A stretch of DNA of 64,000 nt from Bryoerythrophyllum caledonicum (taxonomy: Eukaryota; Streptophyta; Bryopsida; Pottiales; Pottiaceae): contig OZ020517.1 in the NCBI GenBank assembly GCA_963971425.1, positions 684,501 through 748,500 on the forward strand. Direction: 5' to 3'. The notes under the pieces were generated by a model. It was given only the letters and a program-made list of their open reading frames with translations, was not told the DNA's origin and searched no databases. Below are positions 28,550-64,000 of the stretch, piece after piece. The translations under genes and the position numbers were made by a program. How positions within the stretch are numbered: position 1 is the first letter of the stretch; the number at the start of each line of letters is the position of its first letter.

Positions 28550-28619
28550 TTCGGATGAAGAAGCTCTGCTCTTCTTGCTGATGCTTGTGGTTTCTTCTCC
28601 TTTCCTTCAATGTTGTCAG

Positions 28620-28900
28620 GACACTTGACGTCCCTGACGTGCGGACGTCCGAACGGAGGACGTCCTCTGGCCTATCAGGACGTCCGGTGACATAACGAGT
28701 TTCGTCAGTTTACCAGGGGATAAATTGTCGTCCGCAGCCCCGGCCGACCGCCCATTCCGTCCGCTTGGGCCGACCACACGGTTCTCCGTTGTTTTCCGCG
28801 GCCGACCGCACGGCCATCCGCTTCGGGCGATCGGCGTCCGTCGTCCGCCGTCCGCATGGCCGTCCGCCACGGCGGACGGCCTTCTCACGACAGCTCCCCC
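28620..28900. repeat. GC-rich CGTCCG/GACGTC array, left end of element A
   Basis: Contains GGACGTCC/GACGTCC at least four times in the first 75 bases, then many CGTCCG, GGCCGACCGC and GGCGGACGG blocks, in an otherwise AT-rich region. It closely resembles the array at 39,080-39,440. It sits just upstream of the hAT TATA box and ATG, so it may act both as a transposase-binding subterminal region and as a promoter. Confidence 0.7.
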
Positions 28901-28953
28901 GTCCCCTATTAGATTGACAATGTATCGTCTCCCAACGGTTGGAATCACCGTGA

Positions 28954-28961
28954 GTATAAAG
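28954..28961 (+). promoter_or_regulatory. TATA box for hAT A
   Basis: TATAAAGA about 200 bases upstream of the hAT ATG (29,156) and just inside the GC-rich terminal array. Its spacing fits a transcript with a leader of roughly 170 bases. Confidence 0.5.
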
Positions 28962-29155
28962 AAAACAACACATGGAGCCTCACTTCACTTCTGAACTTTT
29001 GTTTCCCAAGAGCTTTGAGCTGCATTATGTATCCATTGCTTGGTAATCATCGAGTTCGGAAGTCTTGAATATCAGAGTTTCTTTCGGAACTCCTGATATT
29101 TCTTCCACATACTATCTATTGCGTTTGTTCATTTCTCGATATTACACCCATCAGA

Positions 29156-32100
29156 ATGGCTACCAAACCTTGGTCTCCTTGGTATATTGAAATCACTAAA
29201 GTACAAGGCAGGAAGACCAAATCCGTTCGATGCAATCTTTGTCACCGCATTTTTGCAAGAAGGCTAGAATGACAACTAGATCATCTCGGGTACGAAGAAC
29301 TTCCTGGCAAGCGCAATAGCGGTGTTGACCTCTACACCAAAATGACACCCCGCGTACAGACTTTATTTAAAAATTGTTGTGGCCACTACCCGAAACACAA
29401 TGGAGAACATTTCTCCGAACATTGCCCCACCCCACCATTGAAATCTGCGCTTGCCTGAGGATATAGCACGCCCAAGTCCACTGGTGGAGATTCTTTTGTA
29501 GGGTCCACTCAAGCCCCCCCCCCCGTGATTATACCATCAACCATGGTTGAACCGACGCCCACCTTCCACGACTTCACCGAACAAGGGAGTGTAGGTGCCA
29601 CCTTCCCCAGATTGGTGAGGCAATCCGTGCTCGAAGAGGGCTTTCAAGAAGTGGAGCCGTGGGAGCTAGACAAAGTGTGGGCGAAGTTTTTCTATGAAGC
29701 AAACGTGCCATTTGCTATAGCACGGAATGCTGCATTCAAGGAAGCTGTGATGAAGACTGCCTCTTTCAAAAAACCATGTCCCACCTTCTTACCATGACAT
29801 TCGGACAAGGTTGTTGGGACAAGCGAAGGTTGATTTGGAAGCACAACTCAATAAAAGACTGTTCGAGAGTGTTTGGAAGTTTGGAGGAACTCTAGCCATA
29901 GATGGGTGGACATCTGTGACTAGTCGTCCTTTGTGCAATGCAATGCTCGTGTCTCCCGTTGGAGAGCTCTTCTTGGGAGCTGTAGATACTACGGGCAAAG
30001 GAAAAAAACGCTGTGTACCTGGCATCCATCATGTTCAAGTTCATTGAACAAGTTGGCCCTCACAACATTGTTCAAGTGTGTACTGACAATGCTCCAGTCA
30101 TGCTCAACGCCTCAGAATTGGTCGTCATGAAATATCCACACATATACATTCAAGGATGTGCCGCGCATGCCATGGACTTATTGTTGGAGGACTAAAGGAA
30201 TGCTACATGGATAAAAGAAATTCTTGAGAAGGCCAAGTTCTTGGTTAAGTTTGTCAAGAATCGGCAAATGTCCCTCGCCGTGTTTCGTAAACACAAGGCC
30301 AAGTTCAGCCTATTGCTCCCCGGACAAACAAGATTTGCATGTAATTTCATAATGATAGATCGCCTGTTGAAGGTCAAGGAATCATTAGAGCAAACCATCG
30401 TTGATCCTGAATGGCGGGCATACGTTTCTAAGAAGTCACTCTTAGCTAGAGATAAAGTAGTCATCTCTCGAGCCATCAAAAGAGTCGTTCTAGATGAGCG
30501 TTTCTGGGAGCAGTGCACGAACTTCCAAGAGATGGTAGCCCTTATAGTGTATGCGCTTCGGGAATTCGATGCCAAGGAACCTTGCATGCCCAAGGTTTTG
30601 CACATCCTTTGCGACCTCGAAAAGCATGTCCTAGCGTTGCGTAATGAACCATTCTGTTTCGATAGCAATTTAGCTTTCATTGCTGACGACGAGTTCTACG
30701 CGCGGAAACGGATGATGACCACGGATTTACATTCCGCCGGTGCACTTCTCAATCCTTATTTACTCCATGACAAAGAGTTGGCCGATGATCCAGATGTCAT
30801 CACGGCATGCAAATGAGTACTACAAAAGCTATCTGATCCTAAGACTAACCCGGACGTGGTGAACGAGTTCCTCGCATTTCAAAACAAGGATTTACCATTC
30901 CATGACATGTTGGATCCTAAGGACCAAAAATGTTCTCCGTATGCTTGGTGGGGTTTTGAAGGTGCTTGTAGAAAGCTTCTTGCACCAATTGCAAAGAGTA
31001 TACTAGCGCAAACAGTGTCATCTTCTTCTTGCAAATGCTATTGGAGTAGCTATTCTTTCGTCCATGACAAGAAACGGAATCGGTTATTACCGGGAAGGGC
31101 TGATGACTTGGTCTTTGTGTATACGAACTCAAAGTTGCTTGCAAATGCAAAGTTGACGGATGAGAAGAGGTGGTACGCAGAGAACTTGGATTTAGAAGAT
31201 CCACAACCACGTGAGTCGGATGACCCGGACTACTCTGACGATTCAACCACCGGTGCCCTTGCCAATTACGATGCAGAGCATCTAGACAATGACATCGACA
31301 GCAACCCTTCTCAACGTATGGATCATACTCACGGCGCTCCAATCACCGAGTATGATTTTGTCGATGACGACGTTCTTGGAGAGAAAGAAGATGACTTGTT
31401 GCCCATAGCGCGGTACTTGAATGGAGACGGCATGGTTAATAGCAATAATATCCTTTGTCGTGGACCGACTCCGCTTCCGGAAGACACGAAGGACAAGGGA
31501 GGAGAAGATTTATCATTTTCACGTGCAACGGCACTACACGGGCAAAAAACGCAAGGGCCCTCAGAGAAGAGTGTTGGGGAAGGCAAACACCACGGTCTCG
31601 CAGTTGTGGAGAACCGCGAGCAAACAACGAAAGAGCCATTCCTAGACGACACAGTTGTTCTCGGGGAGAAAACTATGGAGGGCGGTACTTACGGCGGTAC
31701 ACGGAGTCCCATTCACGTTACGGAGAAGAAGGCATCCTCCTCTAAGGATCAACCGTCCTTGCATGGTCGCGCATTGCGGTCTCTATCTGCAACCCCTCTT
31801 GCAACGGTCACTACAACCAATTTGAAATCTTCCCACGGTTTGGTGTCCCTTTCAAAACATGTGCGACCCCGAACGCCGCAATGCCAATCCGATGGCATAC
31901 CTAGTGATGGCGATGTACCTCTGTCTGAGCTCTTCATACATCACCCCGAGGTTCAGGGAGGTTTAGAGTTACAACCTAGGCGGCCTACAAACGACACGAA
32001 GAAACGTAAAGCTCCCATGCATCCATTTCTTCGCACGCGACCTAGTAATCCCACTGATGTCATTGGAACTTGCAAGAGATTCAAAACCATTAAAACATTG

Positions 32101-32223
32101 TCGATCAAACGGAGAATCAAACAAGAAGCCGCCACGGATAATGAAGACGATCCTTCGGGATCTAGTGGAGCTGAAATCAAAGATGACAGTGATTACGAAC
32201 TTTCTACCGACGTGAATGAGTAG
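29156..32223 (+). pseudogene. hAT-family transposase A with acidic C-terminal tail (decayed)
   Basis: Reads from ATG 29,156 (MATKPWSPWYIE). A BED-like finger with CxxC and HLGY follows, interrupted by TGA at codon 39. The RNase-H-like core shows DGWTSVTSRP near 29,900 and CTDNAP near 30,085, then AAHAMDLLLED, TRFACNF, and the insertion helix region. The dimerisation motif near 31,020-31,085 is SSSSCKCYWSSYSFVHDKKRN; the usual CERNWS reads CKCYWS here. A long acidic, low-complexity tail with basic clusters runs from about 31,150 to the TAG at 32,221. Breaks are TGA (about 29,270), further stops and two frameshifts between 29,455 and 30,013, TAA at 30,193 and TGA at 30,814. It is paralogous to the transposase at 49,792-55,681. 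It would have cut and pasted element A. Confidence 0.8.
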
Positions 32224-32738
32224 GAAAATTTGGCCCATTTACGTAGTATGCGTTCACCGCACTTATTTTGTTTGTAAATAGTGTAGTTTGAGTTTAGGGT
32301 ACTTTATAGTTGTTCTGCGTATACATTAAAAGCTTCTATTGTCTCAATTGATTCTTGGATTTATTCCAAATATCAATAAATTTTTTTAATATATGCACAA
32401 CTTTTATATCCATCTCTTTTGCTATTCTATTGTCTTGTGTTTTGTGTATGGATTTAGTCATCCCATACTAAATGACTTAAACATCACATTCTTGTTGTAT
32501 GCAGAATGTAATTCGAGTTTGCAAACTTCTATTCATTTCACTGCTTCGCATCCACTTGATGCACCACAACATTTCTAACATCTACATACAATTAAAGAAT
32601 GAACAAGTTGACAAAATATCTTATAAATTGTAAACCTTTATTTCAAATAGTATGCCCCATAACGGCATGCTTCCAACTTCTTGCCACACCATTCCTTAAA
32701 CAACAACTACGCTAAGCTTTACATTCATCTACCCCATT
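32224..32738. other. Intergenic stretch between convergent genes
   Basis: About 500 bases of AT-rich DNA between the 3' ends of the hAT A and RING A genes. AATAAA occurs near 32,374, suitable for plus-strand 3' end formation. No ORF of interest. Confidence 0.45.
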
Positions 32739-35684
32739 CTATTGCCTTGAAGAAGAAGGCTCGTCGGTATGATCCGTTCGAGTGCTACTACGAGTCCGCG
32801 GTCTCTGGCTTGGCCTAGCAATCCTCTCCCCCTCTTCGTACTCTCGATCCACGGCTGCAATTTCCCTATGCATCTCCGACCACCAACTATCGTCGTTGTC
32901 ATTGCCATCATCCCTCTTCCCGCCAGGATCCACCTTCTTTGCCGCAAAGATTTCCATGGCCTTCTTTATTAGTTCCACCACATTGTTCACAAAAGCGTCA
33001 TTCTCTGGGAATGACACCAATAATTTTCTTCCGGTTTCTATAGCACGTTCCGCCAATAGCCAATGATGTCGCCAATCCTCCGATCAAATGCTTGCACCGC
33101 ATTCCAGTAAGAACAGTCTACGTCTTTAAAAGAATCTTCTTCCTTTGAACTCCATAGCTTTGCAGCCTCTTCCAACTTTGAAAGAAGTAGGGCTCTTCCC
33201 ACCAAAGTACGATTGTACTTCTTATACTCATCTCTCAACTCAATGCCATCGTTTACCTCATGCCATACACCATCTTCTCCCTTCTCAACTCTCCTCGGAG
33301 GAAATCGGAAGAAACACTTGTGCTCAGTGCTCTAATGCCCCCCAAAGTTGCGGCAAAACAAGTCTTATTGCTCGCCATCTTCAATCTCTCGCGCCCGTAT
33401 CTCCACGTCATAGTCTTGTGTCATCCAAAATAATGGATCAATTTCCATCCCATACTCCTCATATAGTTGGTGACAAGAAAACTCACTATTCCATACAAGT
33501 GGTTTTCCCCACTCATGATAGTTCTGGGATTTCTTTGGAAGTTGATCCAAAGGGAGATTCCATCGGTTGAACTCGTGCCCCGGTGGCATAACATCTCTTA
33601 TCCACATCACTTCGTAGAATCTTGTGCTAATTGGAGAGCGACACATAGGACACGCCGATTGTATCATGGAACCTGCGGAAATGCAAGTAATATGAAAGTT
33701 ATGGCCACATTGGCCCAACATATACGTTCCCTCCGGACCGAAATGATTTTGGCACAAGCTGCCATTGTCATTGAGGAATGACGGGATAGGGTCGCAAGTA
33801 TGGATTATTCTTCGTTCCGATTCTACAAAATGTGATGAGAAGGTATTGTAGGGCACCCATCCTTCCTCCACTTCTAAAGCCCAGTCAATACCATGGTTCT
33901 TTCCCTTCCGATGATAGTTTGTGCGATCCATCATCTCCGGTACATCACCTCAAATAGTAACATTTGTGGACTCATGTCCACGTTGTCCAACAAATTTCTT
34001 CAATCTCTCCAATGAGGTATCCACAAGTTCACATGATTCTTGTGATTCGGCGGCAAAATTCTTGAGATCATGTTGTGCTTTTGAGACCATGGTCTCCCTG
34101 TCCTGAAGGCGATGAACCCAACCCAACCAAGGCATTGTGTTCTCGTTCCATGGTGTGTCGTCCACCGATCTCAATGTCCTCCGCAGTGTCTCTAGTTCCG
34201 CTCGTGCCAAGTCCCTCTCTTTATTTGCCACCGCCAACTTCTGTGACATCAATTCCATCTCTCCCTCACATTCCACTATCGCCTTCCCTTTTCCCTGCGC
34301 TTCTGGTCGTACTTGGCTACTACCAATTGGTATTGCCAATTGAATAGAAGATGGCTCAGCTGGTCTGCTAGATTTAACCGATGTGGCATCCTCTGCATTG
34401 TTTCCTCGAAACTTGGAAAAAGAAAGGTCGTCAGAAGTTCCACCGTTGTCCTCAATGACTACCACATCCACCTCATGAAGCTGCGCATTCATCTTCTCCG
34501 ACATCATTGTTAACGAGTCTCCTACAGGGCTCCAGCTGCCGCTTGTTCCCTTCCAATTCCCATTTAAGGTGTTTAGTGAGGATTTCATTTTTATGGGCCT
34601 CCTCCTCCATATCCATCACTTTCTGAGTTAGTGCGATCTTGTCTTGTAACATTGGCATTATAGAAGAAGCCAATGTGTCAAAGCCATCAGCGGCTCGTAG
34701 CACACTTGGAGTGATACTTAAAAAAGTATGAGCCATATCTAGAAGATAAGGAGCCATTGTTGCAAGAATTTTGGCCCCGTCCATCAAATTACGTGCCACT
34801 CTCACTACTCCATGTATTTGGGCCCAGTTGCTCGAATCACTTCGCACATCGGCTGGATGACCAAATTCTGTTACTAGAACACACGCTTCAGTCCACTTAA
34901 CACTCAAGTCGAGCAAGTCTTTGAACTTATCCTTGTTTGGCATTGTTCGAAGCGTTTCTTCAATATTGGAAATCAAAGTACCCTTGTCAATGATCGGGTC
35001 ATTGGAATTTGGTTCCAATGTTTCCCGCGTTGAAATGCTTGGCCCGGCATCCATTGTCTTTGGTGCCATGCCTTCCAAAGTTTGAACGTTTGGAACAGCG
35101 ATTTCTTCTCCATCCGTATTCTCCCCCCCTCGTTCGGCGTTACCATCGTCTTCACCTCCTACAATCACAATATTCGGAATATCTGATTGTACGGGGTCTT
35201 CTATCGTCGTTACCTCCAAAGTCTCTTTGGGGATTGTGGTTGACAATATATTGTTGACCACAATGTCCAAATGTTTGTCAAACTCCGTCACAATGGCAAT
35301 CTCCTCCACCGATGGTTGTATTTTCAGCATGGTATCCACCGTGGTCATCTGACGAGGCATTTTCTTCAACTCCTCCAAAATAGCCTTTGTCAAGGTCCAT
35401 TCAGGATTGAATAAATCAGAAATATACTTATGATTTCGCCCAATCCTAAACGGATATTGTGTAGTAGTCGGAAATGTGCTCCAATCCACCTTTCGTTTTA
35501 ACACAACCTCGGTGTATACCATTGATAATAGGCTGTAATTGAAAAACCCTTTGCTTCTTGGGCGATTTCCAAACAAAGCCTGCCAAACCTCCTCCGCACG
35601 ATAAATGAAGTGGTCATCTTTGCACATCCACGGCTTGCAAACAAAGTAAGTTATATGACTTATGTGGCAATCTCTTGGCCACAT
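32739..35684 (-). pseudogene. Coiled-coil RING-finger protein A (decayed)
   Basis: A minus-strand paralogue of the RING gene at 58,821-61,105. The start used (ATG 35,684) lies within the conserved N-terminal domain: WMCKDDHFIYRAEEVWQALFG...VYTEVVLKRKVDWSTF aligns with WKCTDEAFKNRCIEVYQVLYD...VHAEVKLGKRVDWSTL of the other copy. A helical acidic middle with coiled-coil potential (to about 34,000) is followed by a RING region at about 33,800-33,660 (GSLC...FGPEG...CGHNFHITC...CPMC). The first zinc ligand is Gly in place of Cys. A C-terminal conserved block (FFRFPP..., 33,330-33,240) and a charged tail follow. Breaks are a frameshift near 34,500, TGA at 33,950, and stops/frameshifts near 33,365, 33,300 and 33,050. 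RING proteins are usually ubiquitin E3 ligases; that role is inferred only. Confidence 0.65.
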
Positions 35685-35726
35685 ATGAGGGTTGTTACAA
35701 TGTCATGGAAAACCTCATGAGAAACG

Positions 35727-36420
35727 ATGTTTTTCACCATTCCCTTGAAAAAACAAGTCTTCTCTTTATTGAAATTTTTTAAAATAGCATACCAACCCAA
35801 GTCAAACATTTTCACACATTGTCACTCATTGTTGGGCAAGGTACCAAAAGATCTTATTAATTTTCACATAAAACCTACATATCTTTGTCTTTGTTACATT
35901 TTATTTTCTCCACATTAATATGTCATGTAATTTGTAAACCTTCTTATTGACCATTCGGATTAGTAATCCAAAACACATTAAGTTCACAAGAAATAAAAGT
36001 TTGAATTGGCAAATTTTGAACCTCCACTACTTCCACAGCTGTTTTGAATACGCTACACCTATCCTCTACCTCAAAAAACTGTTGTCTAAGGAACTAACAT
36101 CATGCTTAAGGTAGTGGATTTAGACCTTGTGTAGTTCAAAATTTTGACACCAGGTAAAGTCAAAGTCTGTTGATCCACTAAACGCAGTAAAGTAAATGAA
36201 CCATTTGCTTCACTTCACACACTATAATCTTTCAATTGTGCGGTCAAAGTTTTTGAAATTTTGTAAACATATTTTTTAATAAGTCTTAATTGAGATCCTA
36301 CGGTCAGAACTAGAAATCAAACTTTTGGTTTCCTTCTATGGTCATTGCACTAGAATCCAACAACTTTGAAGTGTTTTCGGTGCAAAACTGTCACAATAAC
36401 TTTGGAGATACAGGAGACAT
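35727..36420 (+). repeat. AT-rich interspersed repeat family, copy 3
   Basis: Matches 57,916-58,570 in the same orientation over most of its length ('ttttcacacattg...gggcaaggtaccaaaa', 'cacataaaac', 'ttcttattgacc', 'gaactaacatcat', 'attgagatcctacggt', 'gaagtgttttcggtgcaaaa') and 1,130-1,640 in the opposite one. It lies between the RING A and kinase A genes inside element A. Confidence 0.65.
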
Positions 36421-37131
36421 GTTGTATGAGTAGGGAGTTGGGCCTGAGGAGGCGTTTCAAATGGGGGTAATTTCTATAAATGCTAAATTATATTCAAGAA
36501 ACATAAAATGGTTGAGGTTATGTATGATTTAGTGCCATGGGCACTATGATCTATCCCAAAAATTCGAACCCAAACTCGTAAAATTTGATATACGTCTTCT
36601 CTACATAAAACCTAGAGATCATCATATTTTACACATTTTGCTTTATCAACAACATGTAGTGAAAACCTTCCTAAACCTAGGTTTGGATTATCATTTGAAA
36701 TCAAATTTAGTTTACAACAAAATAAAACGTGGAATGGCAATTTTTAAACTCCAGTATTTTCGCACTTGATTTGAATATGCTACAGTTCTTGTCTACCTCT
36801 AAAAAATGGTGTGTAAGGAAATATCATCATAAGGTTGGATTTGGATATTTTGAGGTAATTTAAAAAAGAAATTGAAATACAAAATTTTTGAAATAGAACA
36901 CATTGATAAGTTAAAAAATCGGAACTATGCCTCAAGCAAAACCATATAAAATACAAAAAATGTCGGTCTTTGCACGGCTATATAAAAAAGGTTTTCTTAT
37001 TTCTTGAGCCCAAACTTCAAAGGCATGCAGTACATATTAATCTAAGACTATTGCTACAATCACTTACAATGTGCATGCTATCTAGTACAGTCTAATAATG
37101 CCGAAAGGAATAAAGTAAAACCTATGTATTA
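36421..37131. other. Non-coding; partial repeat copy
   Basis: A partial copy of the same interspersed family lies at about 36,590-36,900 ('gtctacctctaaaaaatggtgtgtaaggaa'). No gene is visible. The kinase A stop is just to the right. Confidence 0.45.
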
Positions 37132-38784
37132 CTAATACGTTGACCGAAAATGCTCATGAAGGGTGGCCCAGTTGTATGTGACGTTGAAGCATGTAATGAT
37201 ATGAAACAATCCTCCAGCGCCGTCTCGGTTTTCGTTGCAGACTCTCTCCATGTACATATGAAATGTATCCGCAAATTCTTGATTTGAGAATACTACGGAA
37301 CTCCGAGATTTGCGTTGCAGATTCTCGTAGTCTATGGACATTGTCCGCCCGTTGATTCGTTGCGCTATTCGGACCGTAGCAAACTCCTCCGAAGCTATCG
37401 ATAATTTCGGAATCATTTGCACATCCGCATCTGGTTTGTGCAAGTACGCAATCCGCGGATCCACCCACCATCGCTTTCGCAGAGTCTCGGCCATGTCTTC
37501 ACGGTTCGTGAACGTATAAAGAGACTGCATTGGTTCGTTAACCTTTGTGGTCATGCCCCAATCGTATACTCCAATATACACTCGCCATTCATCTGGAGGG
37601 AAGTGGAGGAGGATATTGTCCGGAGACAAGTCGTTGTGGAGATTGTTGCTCTTGTGGACCTCGTTCATGATGCGCAACAACGCCCACGCAAAATCGGTCC
37701 TTTTTTTGCGAAAACAAACCAACTGATGAACTCGAATAATCTCATCATCGGGGAATCTCCCATAGTTCAAATGTACAATGACATCGTCACCAAACTCGAT
37801 ATCTTGGTTCAACATCTCTAACACCATATTCATTATATTGGGAGATTTCCATGATTTTGATCTAGTGCACATTCAGCTCGACTCGAGCTGAATGTGCATA
37901 GTGGGTACATTTTAGAGCTCAAGAGCAACATACGTATTAAATTGGGAGGCTCACAATCTCCCAATATAATGAATATGGTGTTCTCTCGAATTGTCCCGCC
38001 ACTCCGCCAATACCCATAGCCTTTGTACATGTCCGGATGAATGGCCACGAAACAGATGACACCTGGATGTGGAATCCTTACCGCCATCGACTCGTTCTGA
38101 TGCTCCACTTTTGCCAAATCCGGCCGTGTCTCCGATTGGTTGAACAATTTGGCGGCAAATTCTCAGAATGGTTCAATGCCCGGTGCACCTTCAATGCGGA
38201 CTTTGCGAATGGTGGCGTATCCACCTCTCCTGTTGGCATTGTTCATTCGTATAACCACAGCTGTTGGTGGAATGGCAATGAGATGGGCTTTTCGCAACAC
38301 GTCTTCTTGGTGCCCCTCTATCGAGTTTCACCATCCCACGGAGCCACGACTGTTTCGATTCTTGGCGAATGACTTAATCTGGGCCACGAACAAATCCGCC
38401 TTCAACAGCACGTCGTTGAAAACTCCATCCGCCGCGCAATTGAACCTCCCAAACTTCGTCAACAAGTTCTTGGCATTCCATAGTGAATGGAGCACTCTAG
38501 CATACAAGATCTTAAAAAACCTGCGCTTCTGGGTCTCTGTATTCCACATCGGGGCTTGAAGCGCGTCCATCATGTGCTGCCGCATGTCCCGTCCGGAACT
38601 TCTCGGGGCCTTCATCCCGATTTCTGACGTACTTGCTCTCCAATGATCGAAGAGTATTTGTCTCAAAGAATCTGACGGTCAGTTCTATGAGGAAATTCTT
38701 GCAAGCCTCAGATAGAACGTCGTGGATTGGATGAAGCTTTACTCCGAAGTCCGCAACCTTCTGCTTTTTCTTGTCCTTCGGCAT
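37132..38784 (-). pseudogene. Protein-kinase-like protein A (decayed, MITE insertion)
   Basis: Begins MPKDKKKQKVADFG at 38,784. The N-terminal helical region shifts frame near 38,520. Kinase motifs then appear in order: IPHPGVICFVAIHPDMYKGY and WRSGGT (strand 4/hinge region, 38,080-37,990), a 163-bp MITE insertion (37,820-37,982), then the catalytic loop HNDLSPDNILLHF and the metal-binding YDWGMTT. The tail ends TYN-rich at the stop near 37,132. Asp and Asn of the catalytic loop are kept; Lys is replaced by Ser, and DFG reads DWG. It is paralogous to the intact protein at 61,730-63,310. The frame also shifts between about 38,330 and 38,150. A phosphotransferase role is possible for the ancestor; this copy is broken. 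Confidence 0.7.
37820..37982. mobile_element. 163-bp MITE inserted in kinase A
   Basis: Perfect terminal inverted repeats of about 28 bp start AACACCATATTCATTATATT (left, 37,820) and end ...GAATATGGTGTT (right, 37,982). The flanks carry CTCT on both sides, a probable 4-bp target duplication. The centre holds a 33-bp palindrome (37,866-37,898) around CTCGACTCGAG, related to the palindromes in the introns at 44-48.5 kb. A degenerate relative is at 14,758-14,890. Confidence 0.85.
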
Positions 38785-39079
38785 CTTCTTAAAACCGCCG
38801 CCGTTCGAATTTTTAAAAAAAACTTTTTAGAACAAGTTTTTTAAAAAACTTTAAGAGAAAAACTGTTTAGAACAAATTTTTAAAAAAACTTTTAGAAAAA
38901 AACTATTTGGAACAAGTTTTTGAAAAAACTTTGAAAAAAACGGCAAAATCTCCCCCCTAATGTGAATCACTATTTCCCTCCCAAAGATGAGGAGCCAATG
39001 GATGGAAAAATGCCAGCCAAAGCCACTCCGCATCCACTCAAAAATATATTTTGAGAGAGGAAAGAAAAAGTGAGAGAGA
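38785..39079 (-). other. 5' leader of kinase A, homopolymer-rich
   Basis: Between the kinase A ATG and its TATA box. It contains three imperfect direct repeats of 'aacaagttttttaaaaaacttt' type (38,822-38,935). It would form the 5' UTR of the minus-strand gene. Confidence 0.45.
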
Positions 39080-39440
39080 GAGGACGACGGACGGCCTTTT
39101 ATAGGGTGGCGGACGGCCATGAGGCCGACCGCCACCACGGCCGTCCGATTGGACGGCCGAGCGGCGGTCGGCCTGATCGGACCGCCATCATGCGCCCGCG
39201 GGATCAAATTGCGGCCGTCCGATCAGGCGGACGGCCGAGGTGCCGTCTGGTTGCTCCGACGGCACCGACCGATCGGACGACTTATCGCAACTTGACGGGT
39301 GCAATCTGGCCGCATGGCACTTTGTTGAATCTGACGGTCCAGAACACTTACCAGGGCCTTCCATAAATGCATTTTACCCCCTTCGGACGGTGCGTCCGAC
39401 TTGATGTCAAGACGTCTTCATCCTAGGACGTCGTAGGACG
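39080..39440. repeat. GC-rich CGTCCG/GACGTC array, right end of element A
   Basis: Dense GGACGGCC, CGTCCGAT, GGCGGTCGGCC and GACGTC blocks, the counterpart of the array at 28,620-28,900. The minus-strand TATA box of kinase A lies inside it. Confidence 0.7.
39096..39105 (-). promoter_or_regulatory. TATA box for kinase A
   Basis: On the minus strand the sequence is CTATAAAAGG, a near-perfect TATA box, about 310 bases upstream of the kinase A ATG and flanked on both sides by GGACGGCC motifs. Confidence 0.6.
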
Positions 39441-53257: not shown

Positions 53258-55974
53258 GACATTGCCCCCCCCCCTTTCAGGCTCTTCAAGGTTAGTTACA
53301 TTTGGAATGTCGCTCTCTGAGGAAGTAGACAAAAGTTCCACTTCATGAATGCCCTCATTTTGGGGAAGAGGAGGCGAAGGACTCCGACGAGGACTTTGAT
53401 TCCAAGGTCCCCAACGACCTTGAGCCAATTCTTCTTCCACATTGTCATCATCTCCGTAATAGTTTCTCGTTTCCTCAAGATGATCGGCACCTTCCGCCCA
53501 AAGATTAGGCTGACCTCGATACTCTAGCGGAGAGCGGGGAGCTGCGGAATTGTGCTCCTCCTCTTCCTCGGCTATCAACACATCAAATTCACGATTAGGT
53601 TCACCCACCGGGACTGGCCCTAGGGCATCTGGGTCGGAATCCTCCAAGTGAATATTCGCCTCGTACCATCGAATGGGATCGGCCCCTGGTCTTTGTTGAA
53701 GGCATCGGCTATTGGTATAAATATACACCAATGATGCAGCCTTTTCTGCCGCTAATCGATTTTGGCTCTTGTTGTGGACAAACGAATACATACTCCAGTT
53801 TCGTTCGCAAGAGCTAGCTGAACACGTAAGGGCTAGAATACGAACAGCTATTTTAGACTATGCTTTGTCTGCGATCCTGGCCCACCATTGGTGGAGTTGA
53901 AGCTTTGTCTGGCGGATGTCAGATGCCTCGGTAGGGCCATATGGTCCTGTGCCCTCCTCGTACTGTGTTAACTCATATTGGACATCGTCATATGAGACTT
54001 CCAATACCTCCATCATTTTGCGAACAACCTGATTCAATGCTCTTTGTGCGATTCCGTCAGCCCTAAGCGCCACATTATCCTTGAGGTACGGATTCAAAAG
54101 AGCCCCGGCGTAGTGAACATCGGTAAAAACCATTTGCCACCGGGCATCAAAAGATTGCTCAAGAGTGGATGCTATGTCAGCTCGTAGAGTAAAGGGTGAC
54201 TCTCTCAAAGAGTACACGTGTTCTCGCAAATTATGCATCACAAGCCACGCACGACCCATGGCTGGTTCTCGGCCATCAAACACACGCAATGCCTTCAAAA
54301 CATCCCTAGTCATGTGTACGTAATTCTGACATCGTTGCCAAAAGGCCACATCTTCGATGGTGAGCACCACATTACGCGCTGCGGTTGCTGCTTGCTCTCC
54401 ATTCTGTCTATTCCGTAGGGTTGCAAAGTAGTTTACAACACGGGGGTGGTCTTTCAACTGCTCCAACACTCCTTTGAGTCTCACCAATCGATCCAACATA
54501 AGGAAATTACAAGCAAAGCGGGTTTCAGTGGGCACTATAATATGCAAGTTTGGACTCAACTCACGAAGTGCCCCCATTGTCGAATGATGGTTTCTAATAT
54601 ATTTGCACAATTTCTTTGCCCTCTCTATTAAATCTTTAAGTTCTTGGACCTTTGCCCAATCTTCCAACATGAGATCCAATGCATGCGCCATGCACCCCTG
54701 CTTGTGAATGTGCGGGTATGTGAGAATAATATCATCCATCGCTCCAAGCATGTTGGGAGCATTGTCAGTACAAATCTATGTCACATGGATGGAACCCACC
54801 TTCTCAATGTAAACTTTCACTTGGTCCGCTATGTAACGCATGGACTTCTTCTCACCACTGGTGTCTGTGCTCCCCAAGAATATGTCACCAGTGGGGCACG
54901 ACATCATTAAATTCATGAGGGGCCTTCGATGGACATCATCCCAACCATCCGTGCATATCGACACCCCATAATTCTTGATTGCAAAACCAACTTTGGCTTC
55001 AATCTCTTTCTCAATTTGCAACCTCTTAGGTTCAATCAATCTAGTCCTCAACTGGTGATATGTAGGAGGAGTGTACTCAATCTTTGCCACGGATGTTGCC
55101 CTCACTGCATCGATGAACGCCTGATTTCGCGCCACATTAAAAGGCACATTCGCCTGATAGAAAAAGGTCGCCCACTTCTCATCAAGTTCCTTCCTTTTTG
55201 CAATGTTAAAAGCATCAAGCATCCGTTGTTGATGTAGTTGCCCAGATCTAGTGGAATTCGAGGCGGTAAGACCACCCGACACATGGTCGTGGTCGTTTCC
55301 TTCAGAGATATTAGGCACTCCTTCCCGAGGCGCACTTGTTACCCCACCCGCCACATTATTTTGAGCATCGGATTGGCTTGAAGTGTCAATAGTTGGTGCC
55401 CTTAACGGACCACTCGGACCTAAATCTCCGCCATACATATCCCCGCCCATCATTCGTTGCGGAACAATGTTTCCACAATTGGCAAATCGACTTCGCACAT
55501 AGGGAGGTAGGCTACGACAAATCGACCTCTCTGACTTGGCGCCATATCCTAAGTGAGCGAACGCACGCTCACGTTTATAGCTAAAAGTATAGTTGCAGAA
55601 AACACAACTCACTTTGCCCCCGTTGTCACCAAAATTGTACCAAGGTTCCTATTCTTTTTTTTGCTTCCTTTGACTTCCCATTGCATTCACGGCTTATGCC
55701 AAATAATGTACAAGTCCCGTCTTCGCCAAAATACGGGTCTAGTTATAGTATAGAATCAGGTGAAAATATGAGGTCTGATAGCGCTGGTGCACTGCTTGAA
55801 CCAATTTTTACATCACCTCAGCCGCACACCAGTGCCGCGTGCCACCCAAGTAGACTCGCAAGGAGCTCAAACTGAATTGAGGTCCAAGGGATAGAGGCCA
55901 GAGTGACAAGCGTGAGGACAAACGGCCCTCCCCGTTCCTTTCATACACAAGGAAAGAAGTGTGACCTGACGCGC

Positions 55975-56180
55975 TAAGGGCGGGGACGTCTCCGTGAAGG
56001 GGCGGAGACGTCCCCGCCCTTAATCGGACAGGGGCGGAGACGTCTCCGCCCCTGCCCGATTAAAGGCGGGGACGTCTCCGCCCCTGCCCGAGTAAGGGCG
56101 GGGACGTCTCCGCCGCACCAGGGCAGGAGATAGACGTCCCCGCCCATACTCCGTGAAGGGGCGGGGACGTCTCCCCAACC
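55975..56180. repeat. GACGTC palindrome array upstream of hAT B
   Basis: Six to seven GGGGCGG(G/A)GACGTC(C/T)CCGCCCC units joined by short 'ttaatcggacag / tgcccgattaaag' spacers. It lies about 300 bases upstream of the hAT B start. A perfect unit is its own reverse complement. Confidence 0.9.
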
Positions 56181-56409
56181 CAGGAGAAGGAGGCCTTTGG
56201 GGCATTTTGGGTGCTTAGGCACTCCTCCTCTCCATTAGGAGGGTGGAGGTTTTAATACACGGTCCCTTATTTTTGGTTCCTACAAGATTGCGACACACTT
56301 AAAATAAAAAGCAGATTCTGTCTATGAAGGAAGGCTAAATGGAAAGTACTACTTTTGTACTTTGACGACATGCTCTCCAATGATGAACACCTTTATTAGC
56401 TCCCTTTTA

Positions 56410-56669
56410 GATCAAGTAGTGAATAGCTTGTGAGCTATGCAAGTCCCCATCCATAACGGGGGACATAAACCTCTAGTAGAATGTATCGTGCAAGTTCTCT
56501 AAATAAATAATTTAAACACAATTGCCCCACAAAAGATTAGGAATGTACAACATACCATTAAAGAAAAAAATAGATCAAGTAGTGAATAGCTTGTGAGCTA
56601 TGCAAGTCCCCATCCATAACGGGGGACATAAACCTCTAGTAGAATGTATCGTGCAAGTTCTCTAAATAA
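56410..56669. repeat. 99-bp direct duplication
   Basis: The block beginning 'agatcaagtagtgaatagct' at about 56,410 is repeated almost exactly from about 56,571, separated by about 60 bases. The larger flanking block (56,240-56,410) also resembles 57,725-57,910. These lie in the 3' flank of the RING fragment and show local segmental duplication. Confidence 0.85.
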
Positions 56670-56777
56670 ATTGTACCATTACAAACAAAAAGGATATTTA
56701 AAATCATGTAATGTTTAGAGCAAAAGTATTGTTCACAAAATTGATTTCCTACGTCCTAAACCTTTAAATACTCCTAA

Positions 56778-57434
56778 TCAGTTGTAACGTTGGTGAAGGG
56801 CTCGTTCGGTCCTCCTCAACCTACCACGTGCTTGTGCCTTTTCGCTCGCAACTTGGACGTGGGTTCCGTCGGAGTCAGCATGTGAACTTGACGTGTCAGT
56901 ATCATAGCTAGGTGTGTCGTCCATCACAGTCATGAACTTGCCCAATCCACCTTCCGGATACTTGCGCCATCCCATTGGAATTATTCCATTTTCAGGGCGA
57001 GGAATTTTTACCTTCCCCGGCATCGACTTCAAAGTGGACCAATCCACTATCTTGCCCAACTTCACCTCCGCATGAACACCCCGCGCAATGAAGAGATTTA
57101 CTTCGTTGCGTTTGACGAATGGGACGTCATACAACACTTGGTAAATTTCGATGCATCGGTTTTTAAACGCCTCTTCGACGCAATGTTTCAAGTTTGCCTT
57201 GTGGAAGCGCCGGTGATAGTTGTGTCGCGCCTCTAGGAAAGCCTTGTCGATGTGGCACCACTCGATGTAGTTCGCGCAATCATCAAAACTCCATGGCTCT
57301 ACTACGTCCTCCCAACCTCGAAAAGCCAACTTCTCGGGATTACGAAGAACGTGCAACCGCTTCCGATGGGCGTTCCCCGCTCGTGCACGGGTCTTGTCTC
57401 GCTCCTCCTTGGCCAATTGTCCGGATGAAGACAT
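56778..57434 (-). pseudogene. N-terminal fragment of a RING-type cargo gene
   Basis: The ATG at 57,434 gives MSSSGQLAKEERDKTRARAG. About 190 residues align with the first part of the full RING gene on the right: RLHVLRNPEKLAFRGWEDV, PWSFDDCANYIEWCHIDKAF, HNYHRRFHKANL, GVHAEVKLGKIVDWSTL, PMGWRKYPEGGLGKFM. It stops with TGA soon after a basic, nuclear-localisation-like segment (RGRLRRTERA), so the coiled coil and RING are missing. The 5' flank (57,480-57,640) is similar to that of the full gene (61,160-61,290), which shows a duplicated gene that lost its 3' part. It might still encode a short protein. Confidence 0.6.
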
Positions 57435-57564
57435 GGTGTGCACGTGTGAATGCAAAAATCTGGAGTGGATGGATGAATGAGACCTCGCACAACGCCCACA
57501 TCCAGCTCAATGAAGAGATGGTGGATAGGAGTATGCGAGGCGGGGACAAATGAGGTCCCCCTCC

Positions 57565-58820: not shown

Positions 58821-61105
58821 CTAGTCAATATTCATCGGGCTATTAGTAGTGCTACTCGCCCCTGCCTCGTTGTCGTGTGCCCCTACGTGCATAGGGAGGT
58901 CTTCATCTGAGCCCAATACAAGTCTACGAGACGCCGATCGTGTTCTCCTCGCTGGTCCATCTTCATCCAACACGGCCCTTAGGATTTGGGATTGCATGAG
59001 TTGGTCGAGCGTTTGCCGTGTCCCTGGACTGTGCACATCGAGCAAGAAGTCGATTCCGTCATTTCGGAAAATTTCTTTCCACTCTGATTCCGATAATTGT
59101 CTTAGTTCTTGCGGGTCCGGTTGGTCAACGTCGTGAGAAATGCGATCCCCATTGCCGTCTGTGATGCGAACTCCGTCAACGGCCCACAACCATTGCCGTG
59201 GATGAGGTCCAAAACGAAATTGCTCCTCGTTCTCGTCCCAATGGCCATTAAAGCATTGGTAGAAGAAATTTCGTTTTCCTTGACCGTATTTGTCCTTTAA
59301 CGGGATCAAACTCTTACACACCCAGACAATCTGATCCGGGTCCCTTTCCCAACCCCACTCGTTTGAGAGGTGCATCTTATCCAACGAGTGCATCTTCAGT
59401 TTCCAGCTCCACACCAAATCCTTTCCCCACATCTGTGATTGATCAGGGGCATTCGTCACATTGAACTCCCAATGCGGGGCATGTATGGAACTAATCCAAA
59501 AAGTTCGTACAATCGCTCGTGAAAAGGGGCCTTGCACAATGAGCACCGCCGGCGTACAACCATCAAGCTAATCAAGCAAAATGGATGGTACAAGTGCTCA
59601 CAAGTGCCTAAATGCATCCCACCTTCTGGACCAAATGGGTTTAGACAAATTGAGCAAGTTGTACCGTCGGATACGAAGCTCGAAGGTTGTGGCCACAATA
59701 ACATGGGGTTGCGCCGATGATCGAGTGTGGATGAAACCTCCTTTTTGAAATCCCATTTGTAACGGGACAAATCGATGGTTGTTTGCCCACCGGCGGTTTT
59801 CACCATCGCCATTTCATCCATCTTGAAAAGATCATCTACGAGGGCCCACGATGTCAAACCAAACACCCTCTCCTGGTTGTTTTCGGTATAGTTGTTGTCA
59901 ATTTTTTGGAATTCCGCCACCAATTGTCGGGATCGATCGACCGTGAAGACGCATGCCAACTTCCATGGATAGTAATGTTCTACCAACACATCCAAGCGAC
60001 TTTGTAGTCTTGAATTCTCTTCAAGCGCTTTAGCCAGCTCTTTGCCGCCGTCACCCGCCGCACCTTCTTCTTTGTTGACCATAGCTTTGTCTGTGTTGGT
60101 AGGGGCCTCATCAAACGACAGTGAATCGTCTTGAGTTGACACGTGTACAAGCCCTTCCTCCTCCTGTCGTGGATTCCGATCTTCTGTGGTCATTGTACTA
60201 GCTTGTAGGGCAAGTCGGAGCTCCTCCATATCACGTCGTTGCTGGTCAATAACAATGTTTTTATCATTGACTTCGAATCTCAACTTGCGAACCTCATCGC
60301 ACAATGACAATAGTTCTGTCGTCTTCCCTTCCAATTGGTTCAGCAAGGTCTGGATAGTGCTGGCAAAAATAGCACCAGTAGAAGCTTCTAACGTTCGATC
60401 AACAACCGCGGGGGATTGTACCTGAGCTACAACTTCATCAATGGTATCGTTAACGACTATGTTAACCGTCTGTTCCGCCCTCCTTCGTTTGGTGCGCGCT
60501 TGTGTCCTTTGGCTCCTTGTGATTGGAACGTGGGATCCGTCAGAGTCAATATCCGTATTTGAGGGATCGGTCTCGTACGTGTCGACCGGTTCAGTCTTCG
60601 CCATCAATTTGCCCAATCCGCCTTCTGGATACCTCCGTGTCCCCATTGGAATCAATCCATTCGCCGGAGAAGGAACTTTTATGCTATCTCCCATGGCTTT
60701 CAAGGTGGACCAATCCACCCTCTTGCCCAACTTTACCTCCGCGTGGACACCTCGCGCAAGGAAGAAATTTACTTCATTGCGTTTGATATAAGGGATGTCG
60801 TACAAGACCTGATATACTTCAATGCACCGATTCTTGAACGCCTCGTCGGTGCACTTCCATAAATTTGCCCTGTGAAAGCGTCGGTGATAATTGTGTCGCT
60901 CCTCCGGGAAAGCCTTGTCGATATGGCACCACTCGATGAAGTTTGCGCAATCCTCGAAACTCCATGGCTCCGGAACTTCTTCCCAACCTTTAAAAGCCAA
61001 TTTAAGAGGATTCCGAAGCACATGCAACCTCTTCCGTTGTTTGTTTCCTGATCGTAGTCGACTCTTGTCTCATTCTTCTTTATTCATTTTTACCGGCGTG
61101 CCCAT
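58821..61105 (-). pseudogene. Coiled-coil RING-H2 protein B
   Basis: Best copy of the RING cargo. The ATG at 61,105 leads to an in-frame TGA at codon 12; the paralogous fragment has CGA (Arg) there, so it is a C-to-T change. The next usable frame starts at 61,027. Conserved N-terminal domain (GWEEVPEPWSFEDCANFIEWCHIDKAF to VDWSTL), basic segment (RTQARTKRRRAEQ), coiled coil (about 60,380-60,180), Glu-rich linker, then RING-H2 at about 59,670-59,535: CSIC...FGPEG...CEHLYHPFC...CSLC with the C3H2C3 ligands all present. Just after it, near 59,475-59,505, a one-base shift breaks the frame; the second frame continues with HWEFNV, KDLVWSWKL, RNFFYQCFNGHWDENE...FGPHPRQW and a basic tail to 58,821. 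RING-H2 proteins commonly act as ubiquitin ligases; the target is unknown. Confidence 0.7.
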
Positions 61106-61261: not shown

Positions 61262-61520
61262 CTGGTCTAGGGTCCCCGGGCAGGGGCGGGGACGTCTCCG
61301 CGGCATGGGCAAGGACGTCTCTGCCCTTGCTCGTTAGTGGCGGGGACGTCTCCGCCCCATAACAGGGCAGGGGCGGGGACGTCTCCGCCCATAACAGGGC
61401 AGGGGCAGGGACGTCTCCGCCCCTTACCGGGCAGGGGCGGAGACGTCCCCGCTCCTTACCGGGCAGGGGCGGAGACGTCCCCGCCCCTGCCCGGGTAGGG
61501 CGGGGACGTCTCCGCAAACC
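61262..61520. repeat. GACGTC palindrome array between divergent RING and kinase genes
   Basis: About eight units of GGGCAGGGGCGG(G/A)GACGTC(T/C)CCGCCCC with short spacers such as CATAACA and TTACC. It fills the space between two divergent TATA boxes. The ACGT core is what plant bZIP-type factors bind, so a shared enhancer is possible; a transposase-binding role is equally possible. Confidence 0.85.
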
Positions 61521-61531
61521 GAACCCTACCC

Positions 61532-61541
61532 ATATAAATAG
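61532..61541 (+). promoter_or_regulatory. TATA box for kinase B
   Basis: CATATAAATAGG about 190 bases upstream of the kinase B ATG (61,730), directly downstream of the GACGTC array. Confidence 0.6.
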
Positions 61542-61729
61542 GGGACATTTTGTCCTTATTCTCTGCCAAGTCGACTCCCTAGGCCTCACGTGTCAGTTCG
61601 CTTTGCGGCCTGAAAGTGAGTTTGGTGGGTGATCGGGCTTGGCGCATTTATTGTACCTAGACTCTTTGCGGTTTTTTTTAAAACCATCAACTTGGAATTT
61701 CGACCACGGTAGGGAGTTGGCTGTCACAT

Positions 61730-63310
61730 ATGGCAGGAGAAGGAAGTAGGTCGATGGAGAAGCGCCCAGTATTTATGGATTTGGACGATGTTGATAAGAC
61801 GGTGCTTCCGTCCACCAACACGGAGTTGACTTCGGGATCATTGAATCCGTCGTCATCGAGCGGGAAGAGGCGGAAGAAGACACCAAATCCAGACATGCCC
61901 CCGCACGAATACATGGTTGAATGTAGAGGGATTGCCGTCGAGTTTTACAACCGCCGGACGACAGGGGCGTTGACGAGGAGCTATTTGAACGACAACGAAG
62001 AGGGATACCACAAGTTGACGGTTGACATGCAACACGAATTAATGTCAAACCTTGATAAATCTGAGAAATTTAATAATTTCTCAGATTATTGGTTGCATTC
62101 GAAGTGGTTGGACACACAAGTGACCGCACTAACCACCAATATCGTTGCGAATTGGTGTTACGTCACAGGGAAGAAGAAGGATGCAAGCACCTGGAACCTG
62201 GAGGAGCACGCACTAGTGGCGAAGATGAGGATGATCCAGGGCTTCGTTCAACAGTACTCTACTTCCCATAAGAAGAAACTAGCTCCTCGGAAAGCGACTA
62301 TTGAGGAGCAAATTCTGGCTCATTGCGTCGGTGGAACTTTCAAGTGGCTTGAAAGTTGCGCTAAGGTGATTCCAATGGCTGGACAGAAAGCGGTGGGTGG
62401 CTATGGGACTGTTCGGAAGGTGATGATAACCAAATTGGAAAACATTCCAAGTTGGATTTACTTCGCCGGAAAGACTCTGACCAATACCAACGAGAGGGAG
62501 AAGCGCCGAAACATCATCAACGAGGCTGGAGGGTGTCCGGTAGTGCATCCAGGGATCATTCGACTTGCGTACATCCACCCGAAAACTATGGAAGGGTACA
62601 CGCTCTGGTGGAATGGGGGATCTCTGGGGAGTTTTTGGTCCAAGTTTGACTCGAAAGTGGACGAAGCATTGCCGTTTGAACGGATTGAGATGCATCCGAA
62701 TACCGGGTTGTCGATCCAAGAGCTTCGGTGGGTAAAAACTTACCGCCAAAATCGAGTGAACCTCGTGCTATCGTTGCTTGTCATTGTGGGGAAATGCCAC
62801 GACGCGAATTATATACACAATGACATCTCTCCATCGAATGTTTTGCTCCACTTTGATGAGTGGAAACCCGATACGGTGTACATCGGAATTTGCGATTGGG
62901 GGCTTTCTAGTCGGGTTGTGGAGAATGAGCCATCAAGGTATGGTTATCAATTCAAGGAGAAGCTTCAAGAAGAGAGAGAGCGGCGGCAGTTTGTGGCACC
63001 AGAATTGTTCTATATTTTTGGGCCGCAGCACTCCACCAACTTGCTTGAAGTCATGCAACGGTCACACCTCTACTCCAAGGCAGCAGATGCATTTGCGGTG
63101 GGTTGGATTTGTGAAAAGATTTGGAAAGAAGATTGGGACACTTCGTATTTCACCACCAAAAATACGGAGCAGTATGTAAACCTGAAGCTGAAATTTAAAG
63201 CGTTGCGCGAACAATTGCTCAAAGATCGGTCTTCTGTGCCAGATGTTTTAGACACATTAATGAAACCCCCCCACAACTGGACTATGCCTCTATGTTGTTA
63301 CCGACAATAG
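61730..63310 (+). CDS. Protein-kinase-like protein with DWG motif (TE cargo)
   Basis: An intact 526-residue frame. The N-terminal 210 residues hold a disordered start with a basic segment (GKRRKKTPNP) and a helical domain. The kinase-like domain follows: Gly loop GGYGTVRKV (about residue 224), YFAGKTL with the candidate ATP-binding Lys, a Glu in NIINEAGG, HPGIIRL, hinge-like GYTLWWNGGSL, catalytic loop YIHNDISPSNVLLHF (Asp and Asn kept, Lys changed to Ser), metal-binding ICDWGLSSR, VAPELFY (APE-like), and DAFAVGWICEKIW (DxxxxG of helix F). The order matches a eukaryotic protein kinase. The C-terminal lobe is short. It lies head-to-head with RING B and has its own TATA box. Kinase A at 37,132-38,784 is a paralogue. 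Activity is plausible; the substrate is unknown. It is the only unbroken cargo gene here. Confidence 0.78.
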   Translation: MAGEGSRSMEKRPVFMDLDDVDKTVLPSTNTELTSGSLNPSSSSGKRRKKTPNPDMPPHEYMVECRGIAVEFYNRRTTGALTRSYLNDNEEGYHKLTVDMQHELMSNLDKSEKFNNFSDYWLHSKWLDTQVTALTTNIVANWCYVTGKKKDASTWNLEEHALVAKMRMIQGFVQQYSTSHKKKLAPRKATIEEQILAHCVGGTFKWLESCAKVIPMAGQKAVGGYGTVRKVMITKLENIPSWIYFAGKTLTNTNEREKRRNIINEAGGCPVVHPGIIRLAYIHPKTMEGYTLWWNGGSLGSFWSKFDSKVDEALPFERIEMHPNTGLSIQELRWVKTYRQNRVNLVLSLLVIVGKCHDANYIHNDISPSNVLLHFDEWKPDTVYIGICDWGLSSRVVENEPSRYGYQFKEKLQEERERRQFVAPELFYIFGPQHSTNLLEVMQRSHLYSKAADAFAVGWICEKIWKEDWDTSYFTTKNTEQYVNLKLKFKALREQLLKDRSSVPDVLDTLMKPPHNWTMPLCCYRQ

Positions 63311-64000
63311 TTTTTTGTTAATTAGCTGCATTAGTTTCGCATGTGGTGGTTAAATAGGCAATACGGCATCTTCGTAGAAGAATATGTGTACTTGGCAATT
63401 GCCATATGTTATATTTTAATCAATATTGGATACGTCCAAATCTTAAATTTTCAGTCCGAGATTTGCATTTGTTCAAGCACAAATAATTATTGATACACTA
63501 TTGATACACTAAATGTGCACAAGTGAAAGAAATAAATTTATTATTTAGAAAAAAATTGATACATAGTGTAGTAAATGGCATTTCGTGTCTAGTTATGTCA
63601 CTACACTAAGTGCCTCATTTGCAATTAGTGTATGGGTTCACATTTAGTGAATACCACAATAAACATAAATTTTAGTTTACCAACATAGTGTGAATAGTTA
63701 AACACTATTAACTAACTCATGAAGGGGCGGAGACGTCCCCGCCCCTTTATGGGCAGGGGCGGGGACGTCCCCGCCCCACACGGGCAGGGCGGGGACGTCT
63801 CCGCCCACCTCCCTCTTGGCATTAGTCCCCGCTCCTACTCAAACATGACGGTGTCCTACGTGGCAGCCATGAGGTGCCAACATGGCTGCCACGTCGCCTG
63901 TTTTTTACCTAGCGGATAAGTCAACCCTCAATTGATTTACTCGGACGGGCGAGAGCTTTATCGGACGGGCGAATCGGACGGGCGGGCGTACCGGACGTCC
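63311..64000. other. 3' flank of kinase B and terminal arrays
   Basis: AT-rich to about 63,715, with a block (63,540-63,680) shared in reverse complement with 40,370-40,490 ('catacactaattg', 'agtgtagtgac'). Then comes a GACGTC palindrome array (63,720-63,810, three to four units). A 'ggcagccatgaggtgccaacatggctgcc' inverted repeat follows near 63,860-63,890, then CGGACGGGCG repeats from 63,940 to the window edge. The region probably marks a right-hand element end. Confidence 0.6.

Follow-up and report, generated by a model that had tools for sequence, protein, structure and literature searches.

Two gene clusters, A and B, lie in the 64,000-nucleotide stretch of Bryoerythrophyllum caledonicum DNA that we analysed (contig OZ020517.1, positions 684,501 to 748,500; hereafter the window). 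A reading of the sequence alone had assigned to each a hAT transposase, a RING protein and a kinase. This raises the question of whether the three genes travel together as one mobile unit, and what the kinase and RING genes would do for it. Pfam, profiles built from relatives and tblastn together bore out the gene content of both clusters.

Results

Extent and ends of element B

All of cluster B belongs to one hAT element, which runs from window position 49312 to 64019 (14,708 bp including a CACTA insert), with its final 19 bp beyond the window end at 64000. Short inverted ends, CAGGGTTGTCATA, stand at both termini, and the right copy of the target duplication GACTAGGA (64020-64027, outside the window) was read in locus L004. 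An 8-mer and inverted-end search around A and B, made before the copies were known, gave matches within the arrays or at chance level; the true ends were taken from comparison with copies. Rfam gave no match within the window. The features of element B are as follows.

49304..49311: target site duplication GACTAGGA, left copy, 8 bp, exact
49312..49332, + strand: left terminal inverted repeat CAGGGTTGTCATAACGGACGG, with an identical start in copies L012, L008, L014 and L017
49326..49397: left subterminal CGGACG array (motif-hit clusters)
49494..49568: left GACGTC array
49792..50937, - strand: acidic C-terminal tail of the hAT transposase; the CACTA insert lies between it and the core, and the two are joined in the C7 copy
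50905..53257: CACTA-type insert of 2,353 bp, with the 3-bp duplication GAC on both sides and an empty site in the C7 copy
53222..55648, - strand: hAT transposase core (DUF659, hAT dimerisation; Pfam), with in-frame stops at 54776-54778 and 53858-53860
55978..56192: internal GACGTC array, where the C7 copy is longer by 3.7 kb and holds a second kinase
56408..56671: repeat of about 163 bp, 1.6 units, expanded in copy L021 to several kilobases
56778..57506, - strand: short RING-less protein made of the RING protein's N-terminal domain only
58821..61069, - strand: RING-H2 protein with N-terminal domain, coiled coil, RING and C-terminal domain, its frame broken between 59456-61069 and 58821-59567
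61272..61515: internal GACGTC array
61730..63310, + strand: protein kinase (Pfam Pkinase), 526 aa, open
63723..63806: right GACGTC array
63942..63997: right subterminal CGGACG array

The sequence-only reading had proposed a large composite transposon, and this part did not survive: no two complete elements flanking a cargo were found in B. It has one pair of ends with the genes inside, and is therefore one large hAT element. The same reading had reported CGTCCG/GACGTC arrays in both sets, and clusters of at least four CGTCCG/CGGACG hits were found solely at the edges of A and B (28642-28873, 39088-39393, 49326-49392 and 63942-63992).

Genes of element B

The transposase core scored above the curated Pfam cut-offs for both DUF659 (4.7e-18) and Dimer_Tnp_hAT (4.9e-5), and its named database relatives are from the mosses Ceratodon purpureus and Physcomitrium patens. 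In the copy on contig C7 the frame is open at both places where the transposase of B has in-frame stops. The insert at 50905-53257 carries CACTATAAGAAACCCG at both ends and is flanked on each side by GAC, as in CACTA/EnSpm elements; it is a later insertion into the transposase gene. Element B's own transposase gene is now dead.

The kinase of B matched Pfam Pkinase at 1.9e-9 and found PDB entries with a kinase fold. In an alignment of kinases (n=27), Lys 248 is invariant and Asp 365 (HND) and Asp 389 (DWG) are present in at least 90% of sequences, so that by sequence the catalytic Lys, HxD Asp and DxG Asp of the protein kinase superfamily are all in place. The RING protein matched zf-RING_2 below its cut-off (4.3e-5). 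However, the spaced C3H2C3 residues of a RING-H2 domain are found in the alignment columns, and the RING matched PDB entries at 1.3e-7. The protein is thus ubiquitin-ligase-like in its residues, with a predicted E3 role. In a Foldseek search with its model no hit reached E 0.001; the hits were mostly RING domains, and none accounts for the N-terminal domain. Searching a collection of genome contigs with the kinase returned three bacterial MAG loci at 33-34% identity over about 50-60 residues, and no kinase relatives were confirmed in viral contigs. Close relatives already appear in sequence databases, labelled as a 'Bacilli bacterium' MAG.

Other copies of the element

From the 2325 candidates that the kinase search gave, 82 copies were scored, and 28 of these have no stop. 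The right terminus is common to all 30 kinase loci fetched; their distinct flanks number 28, one being shared by L005, L006 and L007. RING 5' sequence adjoins the kinase in 27 of the 30 (exceptions L005, L019 and L031; partial in L023). Aligning copies for common ends and 8-bp duplications, as the sequence-only reading had advised, yielded both: six copies were read at both ends, five with exact duplications (B GACTAGGA, L012 AGTGAGAT, L014 TGTGCTGG, L017 GTTGGAGG and L024 GCACGATG) and one, L008, with 7 of 8 positions matching. These are the 8-bp duplications expected of hAT elements.

The C7 copy (L012) is 15.9 kb long, colinear with B at 93-95%, and carries, besides its own duplication, a second kinase. 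Its kinase has CNWG in place of CDWG, and its transposase, RING and second kinase each hold a stop or frame break; no fully intact copy of a B-type element was seen among the copies read. Of the 11 B-family copies probed, 7 contain sequence of the transposase and 2 do not, the other 2 having been read too short a way; L010 and L019 showed none within 16.9 kb.

Hosts commonly encode proteins with kinase and RING domains, and host families of these genes could have expanded by other means and then received hAT insertions. We consider this extremely improbable, since the homologous unit ends at the inverted repeat and target duplication while the outer flanks differ among copies; for B the shared termini already contradict it.

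Cluster A and its relatives

Cluster A is less well preserved, with the following features.

28608..39477: cluster A, an element surviving as a remnant or in rearranged form, its ends of a related kind; the left one has decayed, the right one is CAGGGTTACCAATCCGACG inverted, and the flanks do not match
28642..28878: left subterminal CGGACG array
29459..32223, + strand: hAT transposase with an acidic tail, split over several broken frames
33365..35702, - strand: RING-H2 protein, in several frames
37132..38826, - strand: protein kinase, broken by an insert
37820-37982: the insert in the kinase, about 163 bp long and bounded by inverted ends of 28 bp
39088..39398: right subterminal CGGACG array

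Its kinase matched Pfam Pkinase at 3.8e-5, under the curated cut-off, and its RING protein matched zf-rbx1 at 6.9e-8. Profiles built from relatives detected the kinase (2.5e-39), the RING half of the RING protein (1.2e-25) and its N-terminal domain (1.1e-9). In tblastn with proteins of one B-family copy, the best segments reached 36% identity for the transposase, 35% for the RING protein and 33-34% for the kinase, others lying at 26-42%. The flanks of A, CTTTCCTT and TGTATCAC, differ and so form no 8-bp target duplication.

Two complete elements of the A kinase family, E51 and E58, are 9.5 and 10.5 kb long with exact 8-bp duplications. Both contain kinase and RING-N-domain sequence; neither showed a detectable hAT transposase (2 of the 2 complete A-family relatives read), which indicates that the kinase and N-domain genes can move separately from that for the transposase. 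The interior of cluster A from 29.0 to 35.7 kb is absent from both. A LINE-like stretch was seen in E51. Cluster A probably comes from a related lineage that has diverged deeply, and has itself decayed or been rearranged.

That the three genes travel together, as had been proposed, therefore holds for B, which is one unit with termini and a duplication and has a colinear copy on C7, and partly for A, which has ends of the same type and all the genes but differing flanks. The proposal was to fail if most copies of the kinase and RING genes lacked a hAT neighbour; most B-family copies sampled have one, and the two A-family relatives do not. Our analysis also refined extent and gene structure, adding the end of B at 64019, the two stops and CACTA insert in its transposase, the extra RING-less copy of the N-terminal domain and the interruption of the A kinase.

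Nested insertion had been named as the main alternative, in which separate kinase, RING and hAT elements came together by chance, nested or adjacent. GACGTC arrays do occur inside B (55978-56192 and 61272-61515), later inserts are real (the CACTA element in B, the small inverted-repeat insert in the A kinase and the LINE-like stretch in E51), and cluster A has unmatched flanks and an interior missing from E51 and E58. However, B is one unit with a single pair of inverted repeats and one duplication, and the C7 copy has the same gene order at 93-95% with a duplication of its own, which argues against separate nested insertions in B; all 30 loci have the shared terminus next to the kinase. Overall, we regard nesting as highly improbable; in A it may have occurred.

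Signs of selection

Between the C7 copy and B, dN/dS is 0.31 for the transposase, 0.27 and 0.27 for the RING protein, 0.35 for the short protein and 0.25 for the kinase. Among 13 intact kinase copies, chosen as best protein matches, a choice that lowers dN, it is 0.51, 0.32, 0.29 and 0.25 by dS bin (32, 14, 27 and 5 pairs). The B genes look as though selection has maintained them in working order, suggesting that the element makes use of its kinase and RING genes; both seem to be under purifying selection. Two other transposase comparisons gave values near 1, at 0.93 (8 synonymous and 26 non-synonymous changes) and 1.03 (a partial stretch, possibly misaligned). For transversions the kinase copies showed no fall (private 0.58, shared 0.66-0.75), whereas transitions fell from 0.76 for private changes to 0.37-0.45 for shared ones. 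Compared with L010, kinase copies with stops (0.46) and intact ones (0.42) differed little.

These counts bear on the idea that an ancestral hAT element took up the kinase and RING genes by chance and spread them without use to itself. The two transposase comparisons and the transversions, with no clear constraint, would fit it, and plant transposons often capture genes (review, PMC13317346). Nevertheless, the kinase and RING values of 0.25-0.35 between two full copies, the drop with age among kinase copies, and the persistence of kinase and RING-N-domain together in the B family, cluster A and E51 at about 30% identity make it improbable.

Discussion

Cluster B is very probably a large hAT DNA transposon that carries the kinase and RING as accessory genes of the element; this degree of confidence covers the element and its accessory genes and neither function proposed below. 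For B we observed that copies are numerous, share their termini and carry 8-bp duplications, that one full copy elsewhere is colinear, and that dN/dS between the two full copies lies far below 1 for transposase, RING and kinase. The gene association is established for B and partly for A.

The transposase would bind the inverted ends together with the subterminal CGGACG/GACGTC repeats, and would move the element by cut and paste. The most likely function of the kinase and RING/N-domain proteins, which we put forward tentatively, is that they jointly target a host protein limiting the element, for example one that works in silencing or repair; the kinase would mark this protein and the RING protein would ubiquitylate it. 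As a second, more doubtful choice, they may act on the transposase through its long acidic tail, setting its level or timing. A broader scheme, which we think unlikely, is a giant hAT lineage with its own phosphorylation-plus-ubiquitylation pair, in which a host factor for silencing or restriction is marked by the kinase and removed by the RING protein; relatives that are non-autonomous would keep the kinase and N-domain and borrow a transposase, the pair and not the transposase being the constant core. In annotation, such transposon genes could be taken for host kinase and RING families.

Element B resembles the hAT superfamily in its transposase domains, 8-bp target duplication and short inverted ends starting CAGGG, but differs in carrying kinase, RING and N-domain genes and a long acidic transposase tail. 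Usual hAT elements are a few kilobases long, compared with about 15 kb for B. In the literature, among the matches listed from open-licence PMC papers, we found no hAT element that carries both a kinase and a RING gene.

DNA transposons with accessory genes are already known. Fungal hAT7 elements carry a TET/JBP dioxygenase and IS3EU elements an alpha-kinase (PMC12730594). As in B, an enzyme gene lies beside the transposase, hAT elements being among them, and IS3EU families carry a kinase gene, with transposase and kinase oppositely oriented. However, hAT7 makes 7-bp duplications, the alpha-kinase is of a different class from B's Pfam Pkinase, and the available portion of that paper mentions no RING gene. 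Arabidopsis VANDAL elements, like B, encode an accessory protein, the anti-silencing protein VANC, which is described as recognising short repeats outside the coding parts of related elements (PMC13317346); the arrays of B could serve in a similar way. Unlike B, VANDAL belongs to the MULE superfamily, its VANC protein is unrelated as far as seen, and VANC function is known from experiment, whereas the accessory functions of B are predicted from sequence. Transposon-borne enzymes such as fungal TET/JBP and plant VANC are relevant to the ways in which elements avoid silencing. A hAT element present in many copies, with an apparently constrained kinase and RING, may make use of ubiquitin signalling, and offers a case in which this can be tested.

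Cluster B is a single hAT-type element

Copies of the cluster B kinase were searched in the 437-Mb assembly of 894 contigs, which gave 2325 first-look candidates and, among these, 82 scored matches; identity was 89-100%, and 28 of the 82 are free of stops. In all 30 loci fetched, a common right end, ...CCGTCCAGTATGACAACCCTG with small variants, lies about 0.7 kb past the kinase, and the flanks differ beyond it. These loci occupy 28 distinct insertion sites, one flank being common to L005, L006 and L007. Element B itself begins at window 49312 with CAGGGTTGTCATAACGGACGG and ends at position 64019, 19 bp past the window's end, and GACTAGGA adjoins both ends as a target duplication. A second full copy, E, on contig C7 (loci L038, L034, L035 and L012), is 15,860 bp long and colinear with B at 93-95%, with AGTGAGAT on each side. 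It is without B's CACTA insert and is longer by 3.7 kb, encoding a second kinase.

Genes of element E (coordinates on E)
474-3808, minus strand: transposase with acidic tail, frame breaks
4836-6806, plus strand: kinase 2, one stop
8671-9396, minus strand: short N-domain protein, a RING-less relative of the RING protein's N-terminal domain (N-domain), open
10749-13079, minus strand: RING protein, one stop
13534-15114, plus strand: kinase 1, open

Nine further copies were followed upstream, and four of these yielded both ends: the duplications are exact in L014, L017 and L024 and match at 7/8 in L008. Transposase sequence was present in 7 of the 11 probed copies (B and E counted); the fetched pieces of L008, L014 and L017 took in only its tail part, those of L021 and L030 stop short of it, and L010 and L019 showed none in the 16.9 kb probed. 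L020 has transposase sequence, and no left end was identified in it. A repeat of about 164 bp within the element forms, in one copy (L021; L036, L037), an expanded array of about 7.7 kb.

The whole B unit has thus inserted in the manner of a hAT, and element B is a real, unusual transposon, a variant of hAT. The sequence-only reading, whose coordinates were right, had the three genes travelling together as a large composite transposon. Common ends, duplications and the colinear E uphold joint travel for B, but it is unproven for A, and "composite" was mistaken, as cluster B is one element.

In B, kinase 1 is open, the RING frame is broken, and the transposase is dead, owing both to its two stops and to the CACTA insert. 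Kinase 2 of E (L034-L035), absent from B, is divergent (34% identical to kinase 1). Kinase 1 of E may be inactive, because CNWG replaces the expected CDWG.

Cluster A is an ancient relative

According to Pfam and family profiles, all three proteins (hAT transposase, RING protein, DWG kinase) are present in both clusters, some of the Pfam matches lying below curated cut-offs. Within the window, dense groups of CGTCCG/CGGACG mark the four cluster edges (28642-28873, 39088-39393, 49326-49392 and 63942-63992) and occur nowhere else. Cluster A is, in its best-matching segments, 33-36% identical to the B family, which indicates that the two gene sets are ancient relatives rather than recent duplicates. 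Mosses are among the named relatives of the hAT transposase, so the host is probably bryophyte-like.

The cluster A kinase belongs to another large family, with 150 scored copies from 1790 candidates, which may overlap those of the B-kinase search. Two of its copies were read from end to end: E51 (10,546 bp, CCGAAAAC flanking both ends) and E58 (9,482 bp, CCATCATG flanking both ends). They share the ends CAGGGTTGTCAGGACG and, inverted, CAGGGTTACCAATCCGACG, and their kinase frames are open. A 413-aa protein encoded by E51 begins with a match to the N-domain (5.9e-12), and E58 is 98% identical to E51 along that stretch. When the E and cluster A transposases were used as tblastn queries, no transposase was found in either element, E51 having an N run near its left end. 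Cluster A has ends of the same type, at 28608 (decayed) and 39477, and its kinase part is 90-92% identical to E51 and E58; its interior, with transposase and RING genes, is missing from both, and its flanks do not match each other. Cluster A is a rearranged copy or else what decay has left of an autonomous parent.

Its kinase is broken by an insert of about 163 bp (37820-37982) with 28-bp perfect inverted ends, one end of which also matches window 14760-14788. Elsewhere in the window, a dispersed repeat (67-80% identity) occurs at 1104-1649, 12354-12697, 35793-36845, 42286-42521 and 58060-58545. The stretch 13612-22565 is LINE-like: its minus strand has reverse-transcriptase-like frames, and it includes a putatively 2A-like motif, GDIETNPGP; E51 contains a related stretch. 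Between A and B, 45501-49204 holds frames with an NGQHNVAASK motif, of which one of 385 aa had no significant Pfam match.

Selection on the accessory genes

The comparison of E with B gave dN/dS values of 0.31 (transposase core), 0.27 and 0.27 (the two parts of the RING gene), 0.35 (short N-domain protein) and 0.25 (kinase); RING 5' parts from 25 further loci gave 0.28-0.60 against E. The ratio decreases with age across 13 intact copies of the kinase (0.51, 0.32, 0.29 and 0.25; 32, 14, 27 and 5 pairs), although dN is lowered because copies were chosen by similarity to the query. Transitions in kinase copies fall from 0.76 (private) to 0.37-0.45 (shared), whereas transversions show no drop (0.58 to 0.66-0.75). 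Also on the contrary side, broken and intact kinase copies are near-equal against L010 (0.46 and 0.42), and two other transposase comparisons gave 0.93, on few changes, and 1.03, on a partial, possibly misaligned stretch. Weighing both sides, selection seems to have maintained the kinase and RING genes in working form during the spread of the element, about as strictly as the transposase. It is improbable that they are passengers.

Open relatives in environmental data number 30 for the kinase, at least 23 for the RING protein and at least 117 for the transposase. Close kinase and transposase relatives labelled as a "Bacilli bacterium" MAG (P0004 and P0103) are most likely mis-binned eukaryotic transposon DNA.

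Possible functions and known systems

The kinase was modelled well (mean pLDDT 83.5); it shows kinase-fold matches and an additional helical N-terminal part. For the RING protein, the N-domain and part of the coiled coil are well modelled, and a search with this model returned no explanatory fold match for the N-domain. The transposase would bind the element ends and arrays. We tentatively favour, at somewhat less than even confidence, a reading in which the accessory proteins would jointly target a host protein restraining the element. That they instead control the transposase via its tail is rather unlikely, and some other use is less likely still.

Among the papers listed by literature searches, none reported a hAT that carries both a RING protein and a kinase of the Pkinase type. 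The tested case of anti-silencing is VANDAL/VANC. PMC12730594 (2025) reports hAT7 transposons carrying a TET/JBP dioxygenase and IS3EU transposons carrying an alpha-kinase gene in rust fungi, so DNA transposons with accessory enzymes, a kinase among them, are already in print.
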